Shown here: positions 9,733 to 18,859 of the stretch, one piece after another
How positions within the stretch are numbered: the first letter of the stretch is position 1
How the letters are laid out: every line of letters starts with the position of its first letter
Origin: Synergistaceae bacterium
GTDB lineage: Bacteria > Synergistota > Synergistia > Synergistales > Synergistaceae
Length of the DNA stretch: 64,000 nt
Direction of reading: 5' to 3'
Assembly: GCA_021372895.1 (NCBI GenBank)
Contig: JAJFTP010000081.1
Span: 1 to 64,000, forward strand
Position numbers and translations under genes: made by a program
The notes under the pieces: generated by a model
Seen by the model: the letters and a program-made list of their open reading frames with translations, nothing else
Database searches by the model: none
What the model was told of the DNA's origin: nothing

Positions 9733-9738
9733 TAAAAT
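9733..9738 (+). promoter_or_regulatory. Possible -10 box of the corrinoid operon
   Basis: TAAAAT in the context GTGTGATAAAATAC lies upstream of the first cobalamin riboswitch. A convincing -35 is not seen at 17 nt, so this call rests mostly on position. Confidence 0.35.
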
Positions 9739-9769
9739 ACATATGCTGTTTTTATATGTCCACAGCTCC

Positions 9770-9925
9770 GATCGTACGTTGTAACATCCTGCAGCCGGAG
9801 CAGCGTTAAGCAAATTGAATAATCGCATCTGCCAGGGGGGAATCCGGTGAAAGTCCGGAGCGGCCCCGCCACTGTGACCCAAAGAGGGAAGTCAGGCGAC
9901 CTGAGGCAGATGATGGATGTTATGC
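9770..9925 (+). ncRNA. Cobalamin riboswitch 1
   Basis: It contains the cobalamin riboswitch core: GGGGGAA, then GGTGAAAGTCCGGAGC, then the B12 box GCCCCGCCACTGTGA. CATCTGCC (~9827-9834) pairs with GGCAGATG (~9905-9912) to close a stem around the core. The 5' boundary is approximate. It lies directly upstream of the btuFDC genes and is followed at 9958-9982 by an intrinsic terminator, so B12 binding is expected to stop transcription. Confidence 0.93.
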
Positions 9926-9957
9926 GCGGGCGTTGTTCATCCTCACTGTGAAATGGG

Positions 9958-9982
9958 AGGGAGCCGGCGTGCTCCCTTTTTT
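9958..9982 (+). terminator. Riboswitch-controlled intrinsic terminator
   Basis: AGGGAGC (9958-9964), loop CGGCGT, GCTCCCT (9971-9977), running into TTTTTT. It sits between cobalamin riboswitch 1 and the start of btuF, i.e. the expression platform works by transcription termination. Confidence 0.85.
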
Positions 9983-10009
9983 GATGCCCGCCTGAAGGAG
10001 CTGTTGATT

Positions 10010-10912
10010 TTGCATAAAATGAGGCTGTTTGCTTTTTTCCTGATAATACTGCTGTTCTCGGTTTCCATTTCCGCGGAAGCTGCTCCAAAGAGAATAATCT
10101 CGCTCACGCCTGTCGGCACAGAGATGCTTTTCGCGCTTGGACAGGGTCCTAACATAATCGGAGTCACTCGATTTTGCGACTATCCGCCTGAGGCCCTAAA
10201 AAAAACTGATATGGGCGATTTTGCTGCGCTCAACTTTGAAACCCTCATATCCATGAAGACAGACCTGCTTGTCCTTCAGGACATGCACAAGCAGTTTGCC
10301 CCGCAGCTGGATAAGCTGAAGATACCTTACATTATCCTGAAACAGAATAACATCAATGAAATATGTGACTCTATAGTTAGGCTCGGTAAAATCTGCGCTT
10401 CTGAAAAAAAAGCCTCTGAGCTTGTCAATAATATACGCGCCGATGTCGCAGCCGTTGCCGCGAAAGTGAAAGGGCATCCGAAGAAGAGGGTGCTGCTCTG
10501 CATTTCGCGCGAATTGTCCGAACCTCAGATAAACAGTTTTTATGTTGCAGGAAGCAATAATTTTTATAACGAGCTCATATCCATTGCAGGCGGTGAGAAC
10601 GCGTCCAAAGAGAAGAAGGTATCCTATCCCCAGGTCTCACTCGAGGGTCTGATGATGATAGATCCGGATGTGATCATTGACCTTGTCGGCGAGCGTGAAT
10701 TTTATCATTCCAAGGATAACATAGACCTTGACACAATATTCAACGAGAAATATCTCAAGGGTCAATGGATGCGCAGTGCCGCTGAGGTCGGTGCTGTCAG
10801 AAACGGGCGCGTATATATCATGGACGGTACTGTCTACCTTCGTCCTGGGCCGCGTGTCGCAGTGATACTGAAAGCCTTCGCGAAGGCTATCCACCCGGAG
10901 GTCAAATGGTGA
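10010..10912 (+). CDS. btuF: Corrinoid ABC transporter substrate-binding protein
   Basis: A secreted or lipid-free periplasmic binding protein of about 300 residues. It has a signal peptide (HKMRLFAFFLIILLFSVSISAEA) followed by the class III binding-protein opening PKRIISLTPVGTEMLFALG. It also has TDLLVLQDMHK, and DPDVIIDL in the second lobe. The TTG at 10010 is preferred because GAAGGAG ends 9 nt before it; ATG 10019 is the alternative. B12 specificity is inferred from the riboswitch upstream and from btuD/btuC directly downstream with overlapping ends. Confidence 0.88.
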   Translation: MHKMRLFAFFLIILLFSVSISAEAAPKRIISLTPVGTEMLFALGQGPNIIGVTRFCDYPPEALKKTDMGDFAALNFETLISMKTDLLVLQDMHKQFAPQLDKLKIPYIILKQNNINEICDSIVRLGKICASEKKASELVNNIRADVAAVAAKVKGHPKKRVLLCISRELSEPQINSFYVAGSNNFYNELISIAGGENASKEKKVSYPQVSLEGLMMIDPDVIIDLVGEREFYHSKDNIDLDTIFNEKYLKGQWMRSAAEVGAVRNGRVYIMDGTVYLRPGPRVAVILKAFAKAIHPEVKW

Positions 10913-11703
10913 GCCGGCCCAAGTTTTTAGAGGTGAGGGATATGTCCCTTTCTATCGGCGGTATAAGTATACTGGATGGCATATCTTTTTCTGTCGAAAG
11001 GGGACAGTTCCTTGGCATTATAGGGCCTAACGGTGCCGGCAAGAGCTCTCTGCTGAAGTGCATAGGGCGCCTCCACCGGAACTTTACCGGATCCGTTTAT
11101 CTTGAGGGAGCGTCCCTTGGCCTGATGCCGGAGCGTGCTGTTGCCAGGCGTATAGCCTGGGTGCATCAGACCGGTTCGGAATCACTGCCGTTCACTGTGC
11201 GTGAGTTTTCAATGATGTCGCGCTATCCGTGGCAGACGGCACTTAGCGGCGAGACGCGGGAAGACAGGGAAATAGTCGGAAGGGCTATTCTTACCGCAGG
11301 GGTAGAGGATATCGCTGACAGACAACTAAACAGCCTCAGCGGGGGAGAGCGGCAAAAGGCGCTAATAGCGGCGGCGCTTGCTCAGGGCACAGATATCCTC
11401 TTCCTTGACGAGCCAACGAGTTTTCTCGACTATCGGCATCAGGTCGAGACTCTTGAGCTTATAGAACGTATAAACAGAGAGCAGGGGATCACTATCCTGC
11501 TTGTTACTCACGATATAAATCTTGCCCTTCACGGCGCAGACGAACTGCTCGCAATAAAACACGGCAGGCTGTACTGGAAGGGCCGCAGGGACGAACTTAT
11601 CGAAAAAGAACTGCTCTCCGGCATATTCGAGACTGAGTTTGAGAGCTTTCTGTCTAAAGGGCAGGATGTGCCCTACGTAGTGCCGAAGGGGCTTGTCAGA
11701 TGA
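10906..11703 (+). CDS. btuD: Corrinoid ABC transporter ATP-binding protein
   Basis: A 265-residue ABC ATPase: Walker A GPNGAGKSSL, signature LSGGERQKALIAAALAQ, Walker B DILFLDEPTSFLDY and the H-loop VTHDINLA. It belongs to the FecE/BtuD group of metal-chelate importers. It overlaps btuF by 7 bp and btuC by 4 bp, which indicates tight translational coupling in the riboswitch-controlled operon. Confidence 0.92.
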   Translation: MVSRPKFLEVRDMSLSIGGISILDGISFSVERGQFLGIIGPNGAGKSSLLKCIGRLHRNFTGSVYLEGASLGLMPERAVARRIAWVHQTGSESLPFTVREFSMMSRYPWQTALSGETREDREIVGRAILTAGVEDIADRQLNSLSGGERQKALIAAALAQGTDILFLDEPTSFLDYRHQVETLELIERINREQGITILLVTHDINLALHGADELLAIKHGRLYWKGRRDELIEKELLSGIFETEFESFLSKGQDVPYVVPKGLVR

Positions 11704-12680
11704 GACGTTTCTCGATCCCGGCTCTGTTCGTGTTTTCTATAGCTGTACTTATCGCTGCCCCGTTTATCGGAGTGCAGCATATACCATTTGGCGATATCTT
11801 AAAAAGCGCGGACGAGGGAACGATGCGCATACTCTGGGACCTCCGGATACCGCGTGTGCTGCTTGGATGGATAACGGGCGCGACTCTTGCGCTGTGCGGG
11901 CTGATATTCCAGGCCCTCTTCAGGAACCATCTCGCCTCGCCCGATATGCTGGGGGTTTCTACCGGTGCGGCGTTGGGTGCTGTCGTCTATATCCGGCTCG
12001 GGTATGTCTTCACACTGTTCGGCATTGTATCAGGGCTGTCCTGCGCAGCGTTTATCGGAGCTCTTGCTGCGACATTCGCCATATATGGGGCTGGAAATCT
12101 TAGACGAGGCGGGATGTCAGAGGCTACTCTGCTGCTTGCCGGAGTTGCGATGAGCTTTCTGTTTGGCAGCCTCAACATGATAATACAGTACAGCAGCGGC
12201 TATATTGACACATTCAGAATGATGCGCTGGTCTATGGGAGGGATACAGACGGTCGGATTTGCGCCGGTAATGGCTACGTTGCCTGTGCTTGTCATCATAT
12301 TTGTAATTGCTTTTGTGGCGGGTCCGGAGCTGAACCTCTTTGTCTGCGGCGAGGAGATAGCTGCAAGCCGCGGGGTCTCTGTGGCAAAGCTGAGAAGGCT
12401 GCTCTTTTTCTCAGTTTCGTTCGTTGTGGGTATAAATGTCGCGGTTTGCGGTCCCATAGGGTTCGTCGGTCTGCTTGTCCCTCATATATGCAGGAAGCTT
12501 GCAGGCACCGACCATAGGCGCCTGGCAGTTGCGTCGCTTCTGTTCGGAGGTGCGTTCCTTGTGTTCTGTGACACTGCGGCGCGTATTCTATGGGCTCCGG
12601 CGGAAATGCCGGTTGGCATACTCACCTCCTGCATAGGTTCTGTCTTCTTCCTGTGGCTGTTGCTAAGGGCGAAGAAATAG
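11700..12680 (+). CDS. btuC: Corrinoid ABC transporter permease (FecCD family)
   Basis: A 326-residue polytopic permease with FecCD-family landmarks: RIPRVLLGWITGATLALCGLIFQALFRNHLASPDMLGVSTGAALG and, near the end, NVAVCGPIGFVGLLVPHICRKLAGTDHR. It completes a btuF-btuD-btuC importer. It overlaps the ATPase gene by 4 bp (ATGA). The 157-bp gap to exbB has no clear terminator, so the TonB genes may be cotranscribed. Confidence 0.92.
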   Translation: MRRFSIPALFVFSIAVLIAAPFIGVQHIPFGDILKSADEGTMRILWDLRIPRVLLGWITGATLALCGLIFQALFRNHLASPDMLGVSTGAALGAVVYIRLGYVFTLFGIVSGLSCAAFIGALAATFAIYGAGNLRRGGMSEATLLLAGVAMSFLFGSLNMIIQYSSGYIDTFRMMRWSMGGIQTVGFAPVMATLPVLVIIFVIAFVAGPELNLFVCGEEIAASRGVSVAKLRRLLFFSVSFVVGINVAVCGPIGFVGLLVPHICRKLAGTDHRRLAVASLLFGGAFLVFCDTAARILWAPAEMPVGILTSCIGSVFFLWLLLRAKK

Positions 12681-12837
12681 GTATGTCCAAGCATTTGGCG
12701 AGCACAACAAGTGAGGAACCGTGAGAGTGGGGAACGGGAAGCGCCGCCCGCGGCTAAAAGACACACCGATGAGACGAAGTAAAGCAGAAAACATGAATTT
12801 GCGGATAATATGGTAAATGTGACAGGAGAGATGCAAC

Positions 12838-13464
12838 ATGATGGAATACATGCAATTGGGCGGAACCATAATGTGGGTGATAGCAGCGCTCTCCGTAGTA
12901 GCGCTTGCGGTCGTCATAGAGAGAGTGATATTTTTCTGCAGCGCGTCGACGGATGCGGAAAAGCTCGAAGAATCGTTCGGCAGGGCGGTTTCAGCCCACG
13001 ACATAGATGAAGCGCGCCGCATCGTTCACTTATCAAACAGCTCGATGCACAGGCTCTTCTTCGCGGCGTTCGCACACTGGGGCGTGAACCGGGAGGATAT
13101 GAAACTTCTCGTCGAACAGCAGGTGCGCCGCGAGATATTCCGCTGGGAAAAACACCTTTATATACTTGAGATCATCGGCAAGCTCGCGCCGCTCCTCGGG
13201 CTTCTGGGCACGGTACTAGGCATGGTAGAGATGTTCCATTCACTCCATGTGGGCGGACAAATAAGCGGGACGCTTGTTACGGGCGGGATATGGAAGGCGC
13301 TCTTTACCACTGTTGCCGGACTGACTGTCGCTATACCGACGATATTCGTCCACGGCCTGCTTATTTCGCGTATCGACGGAGAAGAAGAAACTCTCAATCG
13401 AGGTGCTGACTATCTCATAAGGGAGCACTTCGCGAGTCGCGGAGGAGAAAATGAGAAGGCGTAA
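12838..13464 (+). CDS. exbB: MotA/TolQ/ExbB proton channel protein
   Basis: A 208-residue ExbB-type protein: an N-terminal membrane helix (GGTIMWVIAALSVVALAVVIERVIFF), then the conserved APLLGLLGTVLGMVEMFHSL and the GGIWKALFTTVAGLTVAIPTIFVHGLL helix pair. With ExbD it uses proton motive force to energise TonB. Start ATG 12838 (or 12841) follows GGAGAG. It overlaps exbD by 14 bp. Location in the B12 operon points to corrinoid uptake. Confidence 0.9.
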   Translation: MMEYMQLGGTIMWVIAALSVVALAVVIERVIFFCSASTDAEKLEESFGRAVSAHDIDEARRIVHLSNSSMHRLFFAAFAHWGVNREDMKLLVEQQVRREIFRWEKHLYILEIIGKLAPLLGLLGTVLGMVEMFHSLHVGGQISGTLVTGGIWKALFTTVAGLTVAIPTIFVHGLLISRIDGEEETLNRGADYLIREHFASRGGENEKA

Positions 13465-13840
13465 ATCACGTCGTACGGCTGACCTCGATATAACGCCGCT
13501 TATCGACGTTATGTTCATGCTCATAATATTTTTTGTCCTGACGGCGTCCTTTGTAAATGGGAAACTTAATGTTGAACTCCCGGCAGGTTACGGTCTGGTC
13601 TCTCCGATGGAGGGAGCCATAACCGTGACAGTTGAAAAGAGCGGCGCCGTATTCTGGGATGGAAGAAGTGTGGCTAAACAGGAGATCGCGCTGCTGGCTA
13701 AGGGTGCAAAGGGGCGTGAAATACTTGTGGCCGGTGACAGCGGCGCGTCATATGGAACGATCGCCGAAGTCCTTTCGATACTCCGGAGGGAAGGCATTAC
13801 CTCCGCCGGGTTACTTATGCGGGGCGGAAACAAGGACTGA
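13451..13840 (+). CDS. exbD: ExbD/TolR biopolymer transport protein
   Basis: A 129-residue protein with a single N-terminal membrane helix carrying the key aspartate (DLDITPLIDVMFMLIIFFVLTASF) and a periplasmic domain ending GITSAGLLMRG. It is the ExbB partner in the TonB motor. It overlaps exbB upstream and touches tonB downstream. Confidence 0.92.
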   Translation: MRRRKSRRTADLDITPLIDVMFMLIIFFVLTASFVNGKLNVELPAGYGLVSPMEGAITVTVEKSGAVFWDGRSVAKQEIALLAKGAKGREILVAGDSGASYGTIAEVLSILRREGITSAGLLMRGGNKD

Positions 13841-14538
13841 TGATTTTTTCCGGCGAAAGGCGCATCTGGGTGTTTGCGATAGCTGCTAGTCTGGCTATAC
13901 ACTGGCTTATTATTGTGCTGTTTATGCCCCCCACGGTTCTTCATGTCGGACCTGAACCGATAATGACGGTGAGTCTCAGGACCATGCCGGCACATAAAGA
14001 CATAACTCCTGACGCCGGAAAATCACAGCCGATACAGAAGCCGGTCACTCAGCCGAAACCAAAGATACAGCCTCAGCGCCAACCCAAAACTATGCAAAGA
14101 TCCGATGTAAAAACAGTAAGGCCTGTGCAGGCGCAGGTACCAGCAACTCTTTCAGATACGGGTCCGGCAGTGGCGGCAGATATAAAGGCAGGCCCCGCCG
14201 GCAGCGAGCCGGCCTCAGGCCCATCGGCGGCTGTGGCAGGATCGGGCGGCGGCACCGGACGGCCAGATGCGATTGCGGATGTCGACGATCTTCGGGTTAT
14301 CAAAAAGATCATTCCCGACTATCCCGCGTTTTCGCGTAAACGCAAAGAGGAAGGCACGGTCAGGATCATTATCACGATCGACAACGGCAGAGTGATCAAG
14401 GCCGACATCGAAGATTCCAGCGGCTACGAACGCCTTGATTCAAGCGCTGTCCGGGCCGTCATGCAGTGGCGCTTTGACACCGGGGGTCCGGGCCCGATAA
14501 GGGCTAGGGTCCAGTTCACCTTCAAGCTGACAAAATAG
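13840..14538 (+). CDS. tonB: TonB energy transducer
   Basis: A 232-residue TonB: an N-terminal anchor (WVFAIAASLAIHWLIIVLFMPP) with the family's conserved His, then a Pro/Lys/Gln-rich spacer (QKPVTQPKPKIQPQRQPK), and a C-terminal TonB domain (YPAFSRKRKEEGTVRIIITIDNGRVIKADIEDSSG to the end). It shares one base with exbD. It is expected to power the TonB-dependent receptor encoded at 15975. Confidence 0.92.
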   Translation: MIFSGERRIWVFAIAASLAIHWLIIVLFMPPTVLHVGPEPIMTVSLRTMPAHKDITPDAGKSQPIQKPVTQPKPKIQPQRQPKTMQRSDVKTVRPVQAQVPATLSDTGPAVAADIKAGPAGSEPASGPSAAVAGSGGGTGRPDAIADVDDLRVIKKIIPDYPAFSRKRKEEGTVRIIITIDNGRVIKADIEDSSGYERLDSSAVRAVMQWRFDTGGPGPIRARVQFTFKLTK

Positions 14539-14663
14539 TGAGTTTTATCCGTGCTGCCGGACGCCTGACAGCGCTTTGCGCATATAACGGGAGCATGTGT
14601 CTTTGCGTTGCATGGGGTTTTTTATGCAGCTTGTCAATGTACCTCGGAGGTGGAACAAGAGGA

Positions 14664-15449
14664 ATGAAAAACAGAAGGATAGAGTTTCCGAATCTTCGTG
14701 TCGGCGGAACATCATGGGTCATTGAGGGCTCTCTTGCCGACAACCTGAGATATCTTTCATCTGACGTAAGCGATATGGAGATAGTACTTTTCGACACGCA
14801 GGAACAGTCAAACATGCCGTCGCATGACGAAGTGCGGGAACTTTATGATATCTGCTGTGAGCGGGGCATGACCTGCACGGTCCATTTCCCGGTGGATATC
14901 TGCACTTCCCCCGATGCCGGTGAGCGTGTAAGTTGTGAGGATGTATGCCTGCGGACGATAGAACTGTTTGCACCGCTGGAGCCGTTTGCGTGGATATCGC
15001 ATCTTGTCGGTGAACAGCGCGGTAAAATACCGAGCGATGATATGAAGAAATGGTGCGATGCAAGCAGAAAATCTGCTGCGCGAATTGCGGCTGCGGTCGA
15101 CGACAAAAGAAAAGTCTGTGTCGAAACGCTGGATTATGATTTAACACAGGCCTTGGACATCGTTGATACACTGGGATTGTCTGTATGCCTTGACATAGGG
15201 CATATCATCAAGTTCGGATATCCGGTCCGCGAACAGATAAAACGCTACATGCCGCGCACGAGGGTCGTTCACGTTCACGGCGTCAAACCGGACGGGACCG
15301 ATCATGTTGATCTGTCATACTTCGACAAAGACCTGTTTGCCGAGATGATCAAACATATGTCCCACGGAGATGAAAAAGTGTTGACTATGGAAGTTTTCGG
15401 GCGGGATTACGAACGCTCTCTTGCCGTCCTTGAAAATATGCAAAGATAA
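14664..15449 (+). CDS. cbiR: CbiR-like cobamide-remodelling phosphodiesterase (AP endonuclease 2 / xylose-isomerase-like TIM barrel)
   Basis: About 261 residues. The start is ATG 14664, with GGAGGTGG ending 10 nt upstream; the frame extends to 14538 but that part lacks homologous character. The fold looks like a xylose-isomerase-like TIM barrel, with VGGTSWVIEG at the N-terminus and VSDMEIVLFDTQEQ. The likely metal-site segments are TVHFPVDIC, ISHLVGE, CVETLDYD, CLDIGHIIKFG and VHVHGVKPDG. This pattern matches my memory of CbiR, which opens the nucleotide loop of cobamides so the lower ligand can be replaced. Its place between tonB and a B12 riboswitch/receptor supports that over a generic sugar-phosphate isomerase. 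Pfam-level fold is confident; the CbiR name is inference. Confidence 0.7.
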   Translation: MKNRRIEFPNLRVGGTSWVIEGSLADNLRYLSSDVSDMEIVLFDTQEQSNMPSHDEVRELYDICCERGMTCTVHFPVDICTSPDAGERVSCEDVCLRTIELFAPLEPFAWISHLVGEQRGKIPSDDMKKWCDASRKSAARIAAAVDDKRKVCVETLDYDLTQALDIVDTLGLSVCLDIGHIIKFGYPVREQIKRYMPRTRVVHVHGVKPDGTDHVDLSYFDKDLFAEMIKHMSHGDEKVLTMEVFGRDYERSLAVLENMQR

Positions 15450-15604
15450 AAAGATAACCATACGAATATGGTCATCCCATACGTGCCGTTGCTTTGCCTG
15501 GTACCTCATATTTCCCTGCGATATATGGCACATATTTGAATAGCTATAGCTTGACAATTGAATAATCATAATGTAAAACTAGAGGGCATTTGAATATGAA
15601 TAAC

Positions 15605-15746
15605 GGAAATTCAGTCAAGGGAATCCGGTTGAACGCCGGAGCAGCCCCGCTACTGTAGCCGCGACGAAACCGCAGGATGCCACTGTCGAAAGATGGGAAG
15701 GTGCGGGAGTAGGATGAACGGGAGCCAGGAGACCTGCTGAAATTCC
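15605..15746 (+). ncRNA. Cobalamin riboswitch 2
   Basis: GGAAATTCAG (15605-15614) and CTGAAATTCC (15737-15746) form a perfect 10-bp closing stem. Inside are AGGGAATCCGGTTGAACGCC, GCAGCCCCGCTACTGTA (B12 box variant) and a long peripheral stem ending GGGAGCCAGGAGACCTGC. It precedes the TonB-dependent receptor gene and is followed by an intrinsic terminator. Confidence 0.95.
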
Positions 15747-15836
15747 AGTCGTTGAGTATCGCGAGGGCGAGATGTGACAGGCTTTATGCTGATGGGACAG
15801 TATATCTGTCTTATATTATGCATTATAAGGTTTGTC

Positions 15837-15879
15837 GGGCAGGAACTCTCGGATATGTGAGGGGTCCTGCCTTTATTTA
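15837..15879 (+). terminator. Intrinsic terminator of cobalamin riboswitch 2
   Basis: GGCAGGA (15838-15844) pairs with TCCTGCC (15865-15871), followed by TTTATTTAT. Its position between the riboswitch and the receptor start indicates transcriptional control by B12. Confidence 0.78.
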
Positions 15880-15974
15880 TGCCGTTTTCTCCTTGAGGAT
15901 GTGAGATATGCAAACTGAAGGGTTTTGATAGTTTTCCGATCAAAAAACATTTTTATAAGAGGGAGTGTTGCGGT

Positions 15975-17915
15975 GTGTATCAAGGGAAGAAAGCACGGGA
16001 GATAATTTTTTTTATGATAGTTGTATTTCTCTTTTCAGTACCGGCTTTTGCCGCTGAAAGTGCGGATGTGAATGAAGATGTCCGGGAAATAGCGCGGGTA
16101 GAGGTCACAGGCTCGCGCCTTGCCGAGGATATCCAGGACGTACCGGCTTCGGCTTATGTCATTACGAGTGAAGATATTAAAAACAGCGGCGCGCGCAGCA
16201 CGCAGGAAGTTCTCGACAGAGTGCCGGGGGTCAACGGACTGCGCAACAGTTCTTCAATGGCATTGGATAAGAGTGTTACAGTTCGCGGGCTTACCTCCGA
16301 AGTGCTCCTGCTTGTTGACGGGATCCCATTTATGACATCCAGCTACGGCACAGGCGTGTCAATGGGTTCTCCTTTTGATCTCCGCACAATCCCGCTTGAA
16401 TCGATAGAAAGGATTGAAGTGGTCAAGGGCGCCAGCTCTGCTGTCTATGGTTCCAACGCGGCAGGCGGTGTCATTAATGTAATAACGAAAAAAGGTGCGG
16501 AAAAATCCACAGCTTCTATTATGATGGAAGGCGGGGATCAGGGCTGGTTCAGGGGGTCGATCCGAGGCACTGCGGTGATGAGCGATGATCTGAGGGTCAC
16601 CCTTGCGTACATAAAAACACAGGAAAACAGTGACGTCAAAATCAGGAAGCGCTCAGACGGCAATTATGACAAAGCAACGGATTACAGCGGCAACGACTAT
16701 GTCTTCAGCATTGAAAAGGGAAAATGGTCATTTGCCGGAAACTGGGGCGACTTTGACTCTCAGTGGGAAAATACCTATGAACCTTCTCTCAGTCCGGTTT
16801 ACCATAACAGTCAGGAGAACAAATATAGGCGGTTTGCACTTAACTATGCTGATGATGTCAATTCCGGGCATATCTACTACAACAAGAATGAAAAGGAATA
16901 TTCCTTCTTTACTGATCCTGCTTTTATAAGCAACTATAATTACGAAGACAGTTCTGCCGGTTTTATGTTCAACCGCAAACAGGAAATTTTCGGGCTTATC
17001 GGAGTCTGGGGATTTGACTGGCGCCAGGAGAGCTCAAAGTATAATGGATCTTCCGACTATGGCGGATGGATTACAGCAGACAAGCCTTACGATCTCACAA
17101 GGGACGGATTTGCCCCATACCTTGAAATGACTGTCCCATTAGGAGATATGGGGCTTGATATAGGCCTGCGTTATGAACACTGGGAAGTGGACGAGGGAGA
17201 GACGGTCAACGAATTTATCCCACGCCTGTCCCTTAATTGGCAAAGTCCTTCGGGACAACTATGGTATTTGACAGCGGGCCGCTTCTTCTCCATGCCCAGT
17301 TTTTACCAGATATTCATGCCTGACCGAAACTACGGTATACCAAACCCTGACCTCAAACCAGAAAAAGGCTGGACTTATGACCTGGGTGTGAAGGATGACA
17401 ATGCAAAACATCCATGGAATTTCGGTCTCTTTTATATGAATATGGAAGATAAAATCAAATATGAGTCTGATCCTGTCACGTGGGTCGGTCAGTACGTCAA
17501 CCTCGACGAGTACCGTGCCTGGGGTCTGGAAGGAGAGGTCAGATTTAACTTAAATGATGACTGGAGCTACACTCAGGGTATTTCATGGACGGATGCCGAT
17601 GAGAAGGCCGGAGGATCGGATACGTGGGTGCGCTCCGACATGCCGAGGTGGGATGTATCGGGACGCATAAACTACGCCAAGGGTCCTTGGACCGGCGAGT
17701 TGAACGCACATTACTACGCCGACAGAAATATCGACAGCACGATCTACAAACCGGATGATATTTTCCTTGTAAACGCATCGGTCTCCTGGAAGCAGGATGC
17801 GCATAGAATAATCTTCGCATGCACCAATATCTTCGATCGAGAGTATGTTTTCGATAACCAGGGCTATATAAATCCTGAACGCAGATTCATTGTCTCCTGG
17901 GAGTATGAATTCTAA
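15975..17915 (+). CDS. btuB: TonB-dependent outer-membrane receptor, probable corrinoid receptor
   Basis: A 646-residue protein with a signal peptide (IIFFMIVVFLFSVPAFAAE), a TonB box-like ARVEVTGSRL, and a plug domain (DVPASAYVITSEDIKNSG through VVKGASSAVYGSNAAGGVINVITKKG). A beta-barrel follows, ending in an aromatic residue (SWEYEF), as outer-membrane proteins do. The size matches BtuB. Start is GTG 15975 after AGAGGGAG. The cobalamin riboswitch directly upstream, together with TonB/ExbBD and BtuFDC, makes corrinoids the likely ligand. Confidence 0.92.
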   Translation: MYQGKKAREIIFFMIVVFLFSVPAFAAESADVNEDVREIARVEVTGSRLAEDIQDVPASAYVITSEDIKNSGARSTQEVLDRVPGVNGLRNSSSMALDKSVTVRGLTSEVLLLVDGIPFMTSSYGTGVSMGSPFDLRTIPLESIERIEVVKGASSAVYGSNAAGGVINVITKKGAEKSTASIMMEGGDQGWFRGSIRGTAVMSDDLRVTLAYIKTQENSDVKIRKRSDGNYDKATDYSGNDYVFSIEKGKWSFAGNWGDFDSQWENTYEPSLSPVYHNSQENKYRRFALNYADDVNSGHIYYNKNEKEYSFFTDPAFISNYNYEDSSAGFMFNRKQEIFGLIGVWGFDWRQESSKYNGSSDYGGWITADKPYDLTRDGFAPYLEMTVPLGDMGLDIGLRYEHWEVDEGETVNEFIPRLSLNWQSPSGQLWYLTAGRFFSMPSFYQIFMPDRNYGIPNPDLKPEKGWTYDLGVKDDNAKHPWNFGLFYMNMEDKIKYESDPVTWVGQYVNLDEYRAWGLEGEVRFNLNDDWSYTQGISWTDADEKAGGSDTWVRSDMPRWDVSGRINYAKGPWTGELNAHYYADRNIDSTIYKPDDIFLVNASVSWKQDAHRIIFACTNIFDREYVFDNQGYINPERRFIVSWEYEF

Positions 17916-17945
17916 GCTGTAGTACAGAAACGCACTCCTTTGCGA

Positions 17946-17979
17946 TGACGGCTCCGGGACTGCACTCCCGGGGCCGTCA
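17946..17979 (+). terminator. Probable terminator of the corrinoid region
   Basis: A 14-bp stem (one G-T pair), TGACGGCTCCGGGA against TCCCGGGGCCGTCA, with a 6-nt loop, 30 bp after the receptor stop. The following sequence (ATTATGG) is only weakly U-rich. Confidence 0.6.
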
Positions 17980-18064: not shown

Positions 18065-18859
18065 ATGATTATCGACTTTCACACTCATGTCTTTCCCGAT
18101 AATTTTGCTGATCACGCGATGAAAACCCTTGCGGAGAACGCGAATGTTGCTTATTCCGCCCCGGCTACGGTAAGCGGGCTTACACGCGTCATGGACGAGT
18201 GTGGGGTCGATCGCTCTGTCGCACTGCACGTTGTAACGAAGGAAAACCAGCATGAGAACATATTGCGTTTTGCGAAGGCGATAGATTCGGAGCGAATAAT
18301 CTCATTTGGCTCCGTTCTGCCAAGCTCGGTATACGCCCTTGAGTATGTATGGAAGATCTCTGATGAAGGACTTAAGGGAATGAAGCTGCATCCGGCTCTC
18401 CAGCGTATCCGCCCCGACGACATAAAATTCTTTCCGATATATGACCTTGCCCGTGCACTGAATCTCATCGTGACGTTCCATGTGGGTTTCGATCCGTCAT
18501 ATCCGGATGAACTGCTGGCGCCGCCCGTGTCTGTGGTGAACATCGTAAAAAACTTTCCCGGATTGAAGATCGTTGCAGCGCACATGGGCGGGCTGAAAAT
18601 GGCACGGGACGTTTTTGACAGCGTAGCCGGCAAGGCTGATATTTATATGGATACCGCATATTGCGCGGATCCCTGGCTTGACAAGGGGCTTCTCAAAGAG
18701 ATCATAAGAAAACACGGAGCTGAACGCATACTTTTTGGCAGCGATTACCCATGGCATCTGCCTTCTCAGGAGATAAACATGATACGTGCTTTGGACATTT
18801 CGGAGGAAGAGAAGTCTATGATACTCGGCGGCAATGCCGTGAGGCTGCTTGGATCATAG
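18065..18859 (+). CDS. Amidohydrolase family protein (TIM-barrel metal-dependent hydrolase)
   Basis: 264 residues from ATG 18065 (MIIDFHTHVFPDNF). A frame reaching back to 18029 exists, but the HxH motif expected at the very N-terminus favours 18065. Landmarks are DFHTHVFPD, MKLHPALQRI (Lys), TFHVGFDPSYPDE, VAAHMGGLK and FGSDYPWHLPSQEI (Asp). These place it in the amidohydrolase-2 / TatD-like group containing decarboxylases and hydrolases of aromatic or lactone substrates. Substrate unknown. No clear operon partners. Confidence 0.82.
   Translation: MIIDFHTHVFPDNFADHAMKTLAENANVAYSAPATVSGLTRVMDECGVDRSVALHVVTKENQHENILRFAKAIDSERIISFGSVLPSSVYALEYVWKISDEGLKGMKLHPALQRIRPDDIKFFPIYDLARALNLIVTFHVGFDPSYPDELLAPPVSVVNIVKNFPGLKIVAAHMGGLKMARDVFDSVAGKADIYMDTAYCADPWLDKGLLKEIIRKHGAERILFGSDYPWHLPSQEINMIRALDISEEEKSMILGGNAVRLLGS

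Follow-up and report, generated by a model that had tools for sequence, protein, structure and literature searches.

The DNA examined here (the window) is a stretch of 64,000 nucleotides from a Synergistaceae bacterium (positions 1 to 64,000 of contig JAJFTP010000081.1, assembly GCA_021372895.1). Its region 9826–17915 carries, entirely on the + strand, a riboswitch with a terminator, the genes btuF-btuD-btuC, exbB-exbD-tonB and cbiR, then a second riboswitch with a terminator and the gene of an outer-membrane receptor. All eight genes were found in the order and on the strand proposed in the initial annotation. As detailed below, this unit is probably a riboswitch-controlled corrinoid scavenging regulon of a bacterium that is unable to make the corrin ring. 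Its features are the following:

9826–9912, + strand: cobalamin riboswitch aptamer 1, compact form, before btuF (Rfam RF00174 match at 9838–9901, 48.0 bits)
9826–9833 and 9905–9912, + strand: closing stem of aptamer 1, CATCTGCC pairing with GGCAGATG, read from the sequence and also present in the computed fold
9957–9982, + strand: intrinsic terminator 1, a GGGAGC/GCTCCC hairpin with a T tract (-12.8 kcal/mol)
10010–10912, + strand: btuF-like gene of a periplasmic corrinoid-binding protein (Pfam Peripla_BP_2, 97.2 bits)
10906–11703, + strand: btuD-like gene of an ATP-binding cassette (ABC) ATPase (Pfam ABC_tran)
11700–12680, + strand: btuC-like permease gene (Pfam FecCD, 281.7 bits)
12838–13464, + strand: exbB (Pfam MotA_ExbB, 101.2 bits)
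13451–13840, + strand: exbD (Pfam ExbD, 74.1 bits)
13840–14538, + strand: tonB (TIGR01352, 58.1 bits against a cut-off of 27.1)
14664–15449, + strand: cbiR, cobamide phosphodiesterase by family (NCBIfam NF041277, conserved residues, tree)
15595–15755, + strand: cobalamin riboswitch aptamer 2, full-length, before the receptor gene (RF00174, 96.4 bits, E 8.9e-23)
15837–15880, + strand: intrinsic terminator 2, GGCAGGA...TCCTGCC with a T tract (-22.2 kcal/mol)
15975–17915, + strand: btuB-like TonB-dependent outer-membrane receptor (Pfam Plug, 97.1 bits; barrel, 137.2 bits)

The longest open reading frame (ORF) of btuF (ATG 9917) begins within the leader; the start codon is likely TTG 10010 or ATG 10019, which would yield a normal signal peptide. 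For cbiR the longer ORF begins at GTG 14538, and the initially proposed ATG at 14664 is the most likely start.

Riboswitches, terminators and the TonB motor

Both aptamers exceed the gathering score of RF00174 (31.5 bits), and they are the only two cobalamin riboswitches of the whole genome. Each is followed by a hairpin with a T tract, which no shuffled sequence equalled in strength (0 of 40 for either terminator), confirming the two terminator-type riboswitches that had been proposed. The further claim that each end of the unit starts with its own riboswitch holds insofar as one aptamer precedes the seven-gene run and the other the receptor gene, everything lying on the + strand. The terminators were found by a custom scan, while a consensus terminator scan missed both, one of them owing to its loop limit of 8. 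Among 23 cobalamin aptamers of the window and its relatives, 18 have a strong hairpin and T tract at a distance of at most 220 nt, whereas 1.2 are expected from dinucleotide shuffles; therefore, the terminator reading is not due to chance. The folding z-scores of the leader were unremarkable.

Inspection of the btuF leader by eye revealed that GGATG (9915–9919) can pair with CATCC (9938–9942), the hairpin having a GGGC loop complementary to GCCCC of the aptamer, and that the CATCCTC strand can alternatively pair with GGGAGG on the 5′ side of the terminator. On this visual reading, ligand binding would favour GGATG/CATCC pairing and termination, while absence of the ligand would favour read-through. 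Against this proposal, the minimum-energy fold contains the terminator but not the GGATG/CATCC hairpin.

ExbB, ExbD and the TonB C-terminal domain, the parts of a TonB energising system, are encoded together. The 1.84 Mb draft genome has only one ExbD/TolR-type gene (a single PF02472 match) and only one receptor Plug domain, both of which belong to this unit. Therefore the TonB motor is dedicated to this receptor, its one known client, as the initial annotation had it. With the ExbD of the B12 operon as the only member of the ExbD/TolR family found in the genome, TolR of a Tol-Pal system is seemingly absent.

Cobamide metabolism and the CobT gap

No CbiC is encoded in this genome, and therefore the corrin ring is not synthesized. 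Cobamide-dependent enzymes were found, namely a MetH-type protein, both parts of methylmalonyl-CoA mutase, and a corrinoid methyltransferase system comprising an MtbC-like corrinoid protein whose gene has methyltransferase genes nearby. Neither case named as refuting in the initial annotation applies, since such enzymes are encoded and the TIM barrel is not an epimerase. In two relatives (L221:5012-9709 and L222:5886-10596), a cobalamin riboswitch precedes apparent methylmalonyl-CoA mutase genes.

The lower-ligand attachment pathway, for which the initial annotation proposed a search, is present in part. CobU (171.3 bits against an equivalog cut-off of 161) and CobA (over its equivalog cut-off) were identified, and so was CobS, which scores 126.4 bits against 23.2 in Pfam but 82 against a cut-off of 110 on NCBIfam TIGR00317. 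CobT, which or else ArsAB is required for lower-ligand activation, was not found, as the genome has no PF02277 match. The remodelling system can thus not be called complete, since without CobT the attachment of a different, self-activated lower ligand is unaccounted for. The cobU-cobS genes are located upstream of metF-metH, in an apparent operon (L039:983-7252; G000:C82) with genes of a Cof-type HAD phosphatase and a possible MetH activation part, and this gene order recurs in about ten relatives.

The lack of CobT is not confined to this genome. Among 53 Synergistaceae genomes surveyed, CobT occurs in three, and among the 28 good-quality ones (completeness ≥ 90%, contamination ≤ 5%) in a single one (G003) and not in the other 27; the search was validated by control genomes and by the three positives (E < 1e-120). 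In the good-quality subset, CobS is present in 26 genomes and CbiC in 15, while 14 genomes combine CbiC and CobS without CobT, and 11, including the one studied here, encode CobS but neither CbiC nor CobT. The CobS proteins of the CobT-less genomes retain intact H-x-D-G-x-x-D-x-x-D, K-D and G-D motifs. The family-wide gap is not explicable by missing sequence in one draft assembly, and a limited search of the open literature found no report of CobS without CobT in Synergistaceae. In G003, cobT adjoins a TIM-barrel gene that weakly resembles CbiR (22 bits; L062:657, minus-strand reading).

From the gene content described we infer the ligand response, the substrate range and the flux of the regulon as follows. 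At low internal cobamide, both riboswitches would read through their terminators, as their anatomy suggests, so that the receptor, the sole TonB motor (ExbB-ExbD-TonB) and the BtuFCD importer would be made and cobamides imported. CbiR, with the chemistry assumed from its family membership, would then cut the phosphoribosyl bond of the imported cobamides, releasing cobinamide-phosphate and alpha-ribazole. CobU would convert the former to adenosylcobinamide-GDP (AdoCbi-GDP), to which CobS would join an alpha-ribazole, and the rebuilt cobamide would be used by MetH, methylmalonyl-CoA mutase and the corrinoid methyltransferases. As CobT is absent, the attached alpha-ribazole would have been released by CbiR, imported, or supplied by an enzyme not yet recognised.

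There is about an even chance that ordinary remodelling is completed by an unrecognised lower-ligand activating enzyme outside the CobT family or by alpha-ribazole salvage of the CblT/CblS type. The CobS-positive, CobT-negative pattern extends over the whole family, de novo producers included; Listeria and Lactobacillus, which lack CobT, provide a precedent by salvaging alpha-ribazole with CblS/CblT (PMC5064896, PMC6461909); and cobC-like genes, recognised by eye, persist in the cob operons of G014 and G015. This explanation is opposed by the lack of any candidate near cobS in 20 relatives and this genome. The genes that recur downstream there are metF, metH and that of the Cof-type HAD phosphatase, and in 11 cases cobU is preceded by a gene for a large protein. 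Nor was a candidate seen by eye in the cbi/cob operons of G014 and G015 (genomes of 3.5-3.6 Mb) or of G050 and G052, although no genome-wide search for CblS/CblT was made.

It is possible, but rather doubtful, that uptake proceeds without ligand replacement, CbiR and CobU-CobS recycling the same alpha-ribazoles, so that imported cobamides would be opened and reclosed or swapped with one another, with the selectivity of CobS determining which of them accumulates. The retention of CobS with intact motifs in a family that so widely lacks CobT speaks for such recycling. Alpha-ribazole is a form believed to be acceptable to CobS. CbiR yields alpha-ribazole itself and not its phosphate (PMC7733943). 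However, the 14 good-quality relatives with CbiC and CobS but no CobT need alpha-ribazole from elsewhere for de novo synthesis, so the family probably has an additional source. We propose tentatively, with somewhat less than even confidence, that Synergistaceae complete cobamides without CobT, either by an unrecognised activator or with CbiR as the alpha-ribazole supplier, which would allow lower-ligand exchange through CbiR, CobU and CobS.

The transported ligand and the identity of CbiR

The best NCBIfam match of the btuF product is BtuF (108 bits), which does not reach the equivalog cut-off of 234. The btuD product gives a corrinoid ABC ATPase as its top match (202 bits, cut-off 537) and scores 122 bits with the BtuD equivalog (cut-off 281), while the top matches of the btuC product are both BtuC models (218 and 215 bits), likewise under their cut-offs (215 vs 334). 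The receptor scores 152.8 bits with TIGR01779 TonB-B12 (cut-off 599.7), below its score of 164.8 bits with a hemin receptor model. Therefore, the ligand was assigned through the riboswitch control and the gene neighbours, and the names BtuF, BtuC, BtuD and B12 receptor are to be read as suggested by this context. On the scores alone, the importer, motor and receptor might transport iron-siderophore or haem rather than corrinoids, but this is very improbable, because a cobalamin riboswitch and terminator head both transcription units and cbiR lies inside the operon in most sampled genera.

Several points nevertheless weigh against the corrinoid scavenging regulon. BtuF, BtuC, BtuD and the receptor stay under the curated B12-specific cut-offs, no supplier of activated ligand for the rebuild step was identified in the absence of CobT, and the genome is a draft (1.84 Mb in 97 contigs, 96% complete). 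The initial interpretation was right as to uptake, regulation and CbiR, while the rebuilding is unproven.

The sole NCBIfam match of the TIM barrel at 14664–15449, initially described as CbiR-like, is the CbiR model of the cobamide remodelling phosphodiesterase (NF041277), at 216.2 bits against a curated equivalog cut-off of 105, and not a sugar-phosphate epimerase. H74, H113, E154, D177, H180, H203, H205, D213, H214 and E243 are invariant in 16 sequences, and these ten His/Asp/Glu are residues typical of the metal site of the AP endonuclease 2 superfamily. In a tree with endonuclease IV as the only outgroup (sugar epimerases were not included), the CbiR of the window clusters with cbiR relatives from several phyla, many of which adjoin cobU, cobT and cobS, and endonuclease IV is distant. 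No solved CbiR structure was found by sequence, the nearest being MJ1311 (E 8e-7). CbiR of Akkermansia converts adenosylcobalamin to AdoCbi-phosphate and alpha-ribazole and accepts several different cobamides (PMC7733943), and the same chemistry is assumed here by analogy. That the TIM barrel is a sugar-phosphate isomerase/epimerase or an endonuclease standing in the operon by chance, as its Pfam membership (AP_endonuc_2/xylose isomerase-like) might suggest, is scarcely credible and was rejected, given the CbiR-only match at twice the cut-off, the position in the tree apart from endonuclease IV, which is encoded by a separate gene of the same genome (L004), and the linkage of most examined cbiR loci of several phyla to B12 transport or biosynthesis genes.

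Conservation and comparison with known systems

CbiR exceeds the cut-off in 30 of the 53 family genomes. Of the 15 relative loci examined, 10 have btuF, btuD, btuC, cbiR, exbB and exbD in a single run on the same strand, usually with tonB, and an eleventh locus (L054) contains an additional gene block between cbiR and tonB. The position of cbiR varies: it either separates btuC from exbB or follows tonB. In most of these loci cobalamin aptamers lie close to btuF, to the receptor gene or to both (L048 was not scanned), and the gene set is conserved across most sampled cbiR-bearing genera of Synergistaceae. The presence of CbiR has no clear tie to the lack of CbiC, as CbiR was detected in 10 of the 13 good-quality genomes without CbiC and in 8 of the 15 with it. 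In one locus labelled Synergistaceae (L144), cbiR stands with cobU, cobT and cobS, and its CbiR clusters with Verrucomicrobiota/Myxococcota sequences, which may be explained by transfer, misbinning or a different family.

One further gene follows the receptor in the window:

18068–18859, + strand: Amidohydro_2 gene (Pfam PF04909, 103.1 bits; synteny)

This gene also neighbours the receptor in other genera, as seen in three other genomes, and adjoins cbiB-cobD-cobC in two others; its position may reflect plain synteny, as a helicase neighbour is likewise conserved.

The unit is ordinary in its parts and unusual in holding the only TonB motor of the cell and in belonging to a CobT-less family. 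Across the family, it links CbiR to a single-purpose uptake system that is under B12 control and has a TonB motor of its own; how CbiR is coupled to import had been left open when the enzyme was discovered. The family-wide presence of CobS without CobT predicts that an enzyme is missing from the picture, that alpha-ribazole is salvaged or that lower ligands are exchanged, and it bears on forecasting which B12 forms are shared by whom in anaerobic communities.

In regulation, the unit resembles the terminator-type RF00174 riboswitches, with an aptamer over the gathering score followed by a hairpin and T tract, and differs in nothing essential, the btuF copy being compact and the receptor copy full-length. 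With the CobT-less corrinoid producers Listeria and Lactobacillus coryniformis (PMC5064896), it would share the assembly of cobamides without CobT. The cbiR loci of Thermodesulfobacteriota, Verrucomicrobiota, Lentisphaerota and others are similar in that cbiR often immediately follows btuF, btuC and btuD, with btuB close by, but they often contain cobU-cobT-cobS, in place of which the Synergistaceae loci have exbB-exbD-tonB. Akkermansia muciniphila (PMC7733943) likewise has a CbiR phosphodiesterase, is a salvager needing CobU-CobS and possesses cobamide-dependent MetH and methylmalonyl-CoA mutase. In contrast to its CbiR locus, cbiR here belongs to an operon for transport that includes a TonB motor, the genome has no CobT, and cobU-cobS are found next to metF-metH on a separate contig. 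The operon is thus a variant, found in Synergistaceae, of the CbiR salvage locus already known.

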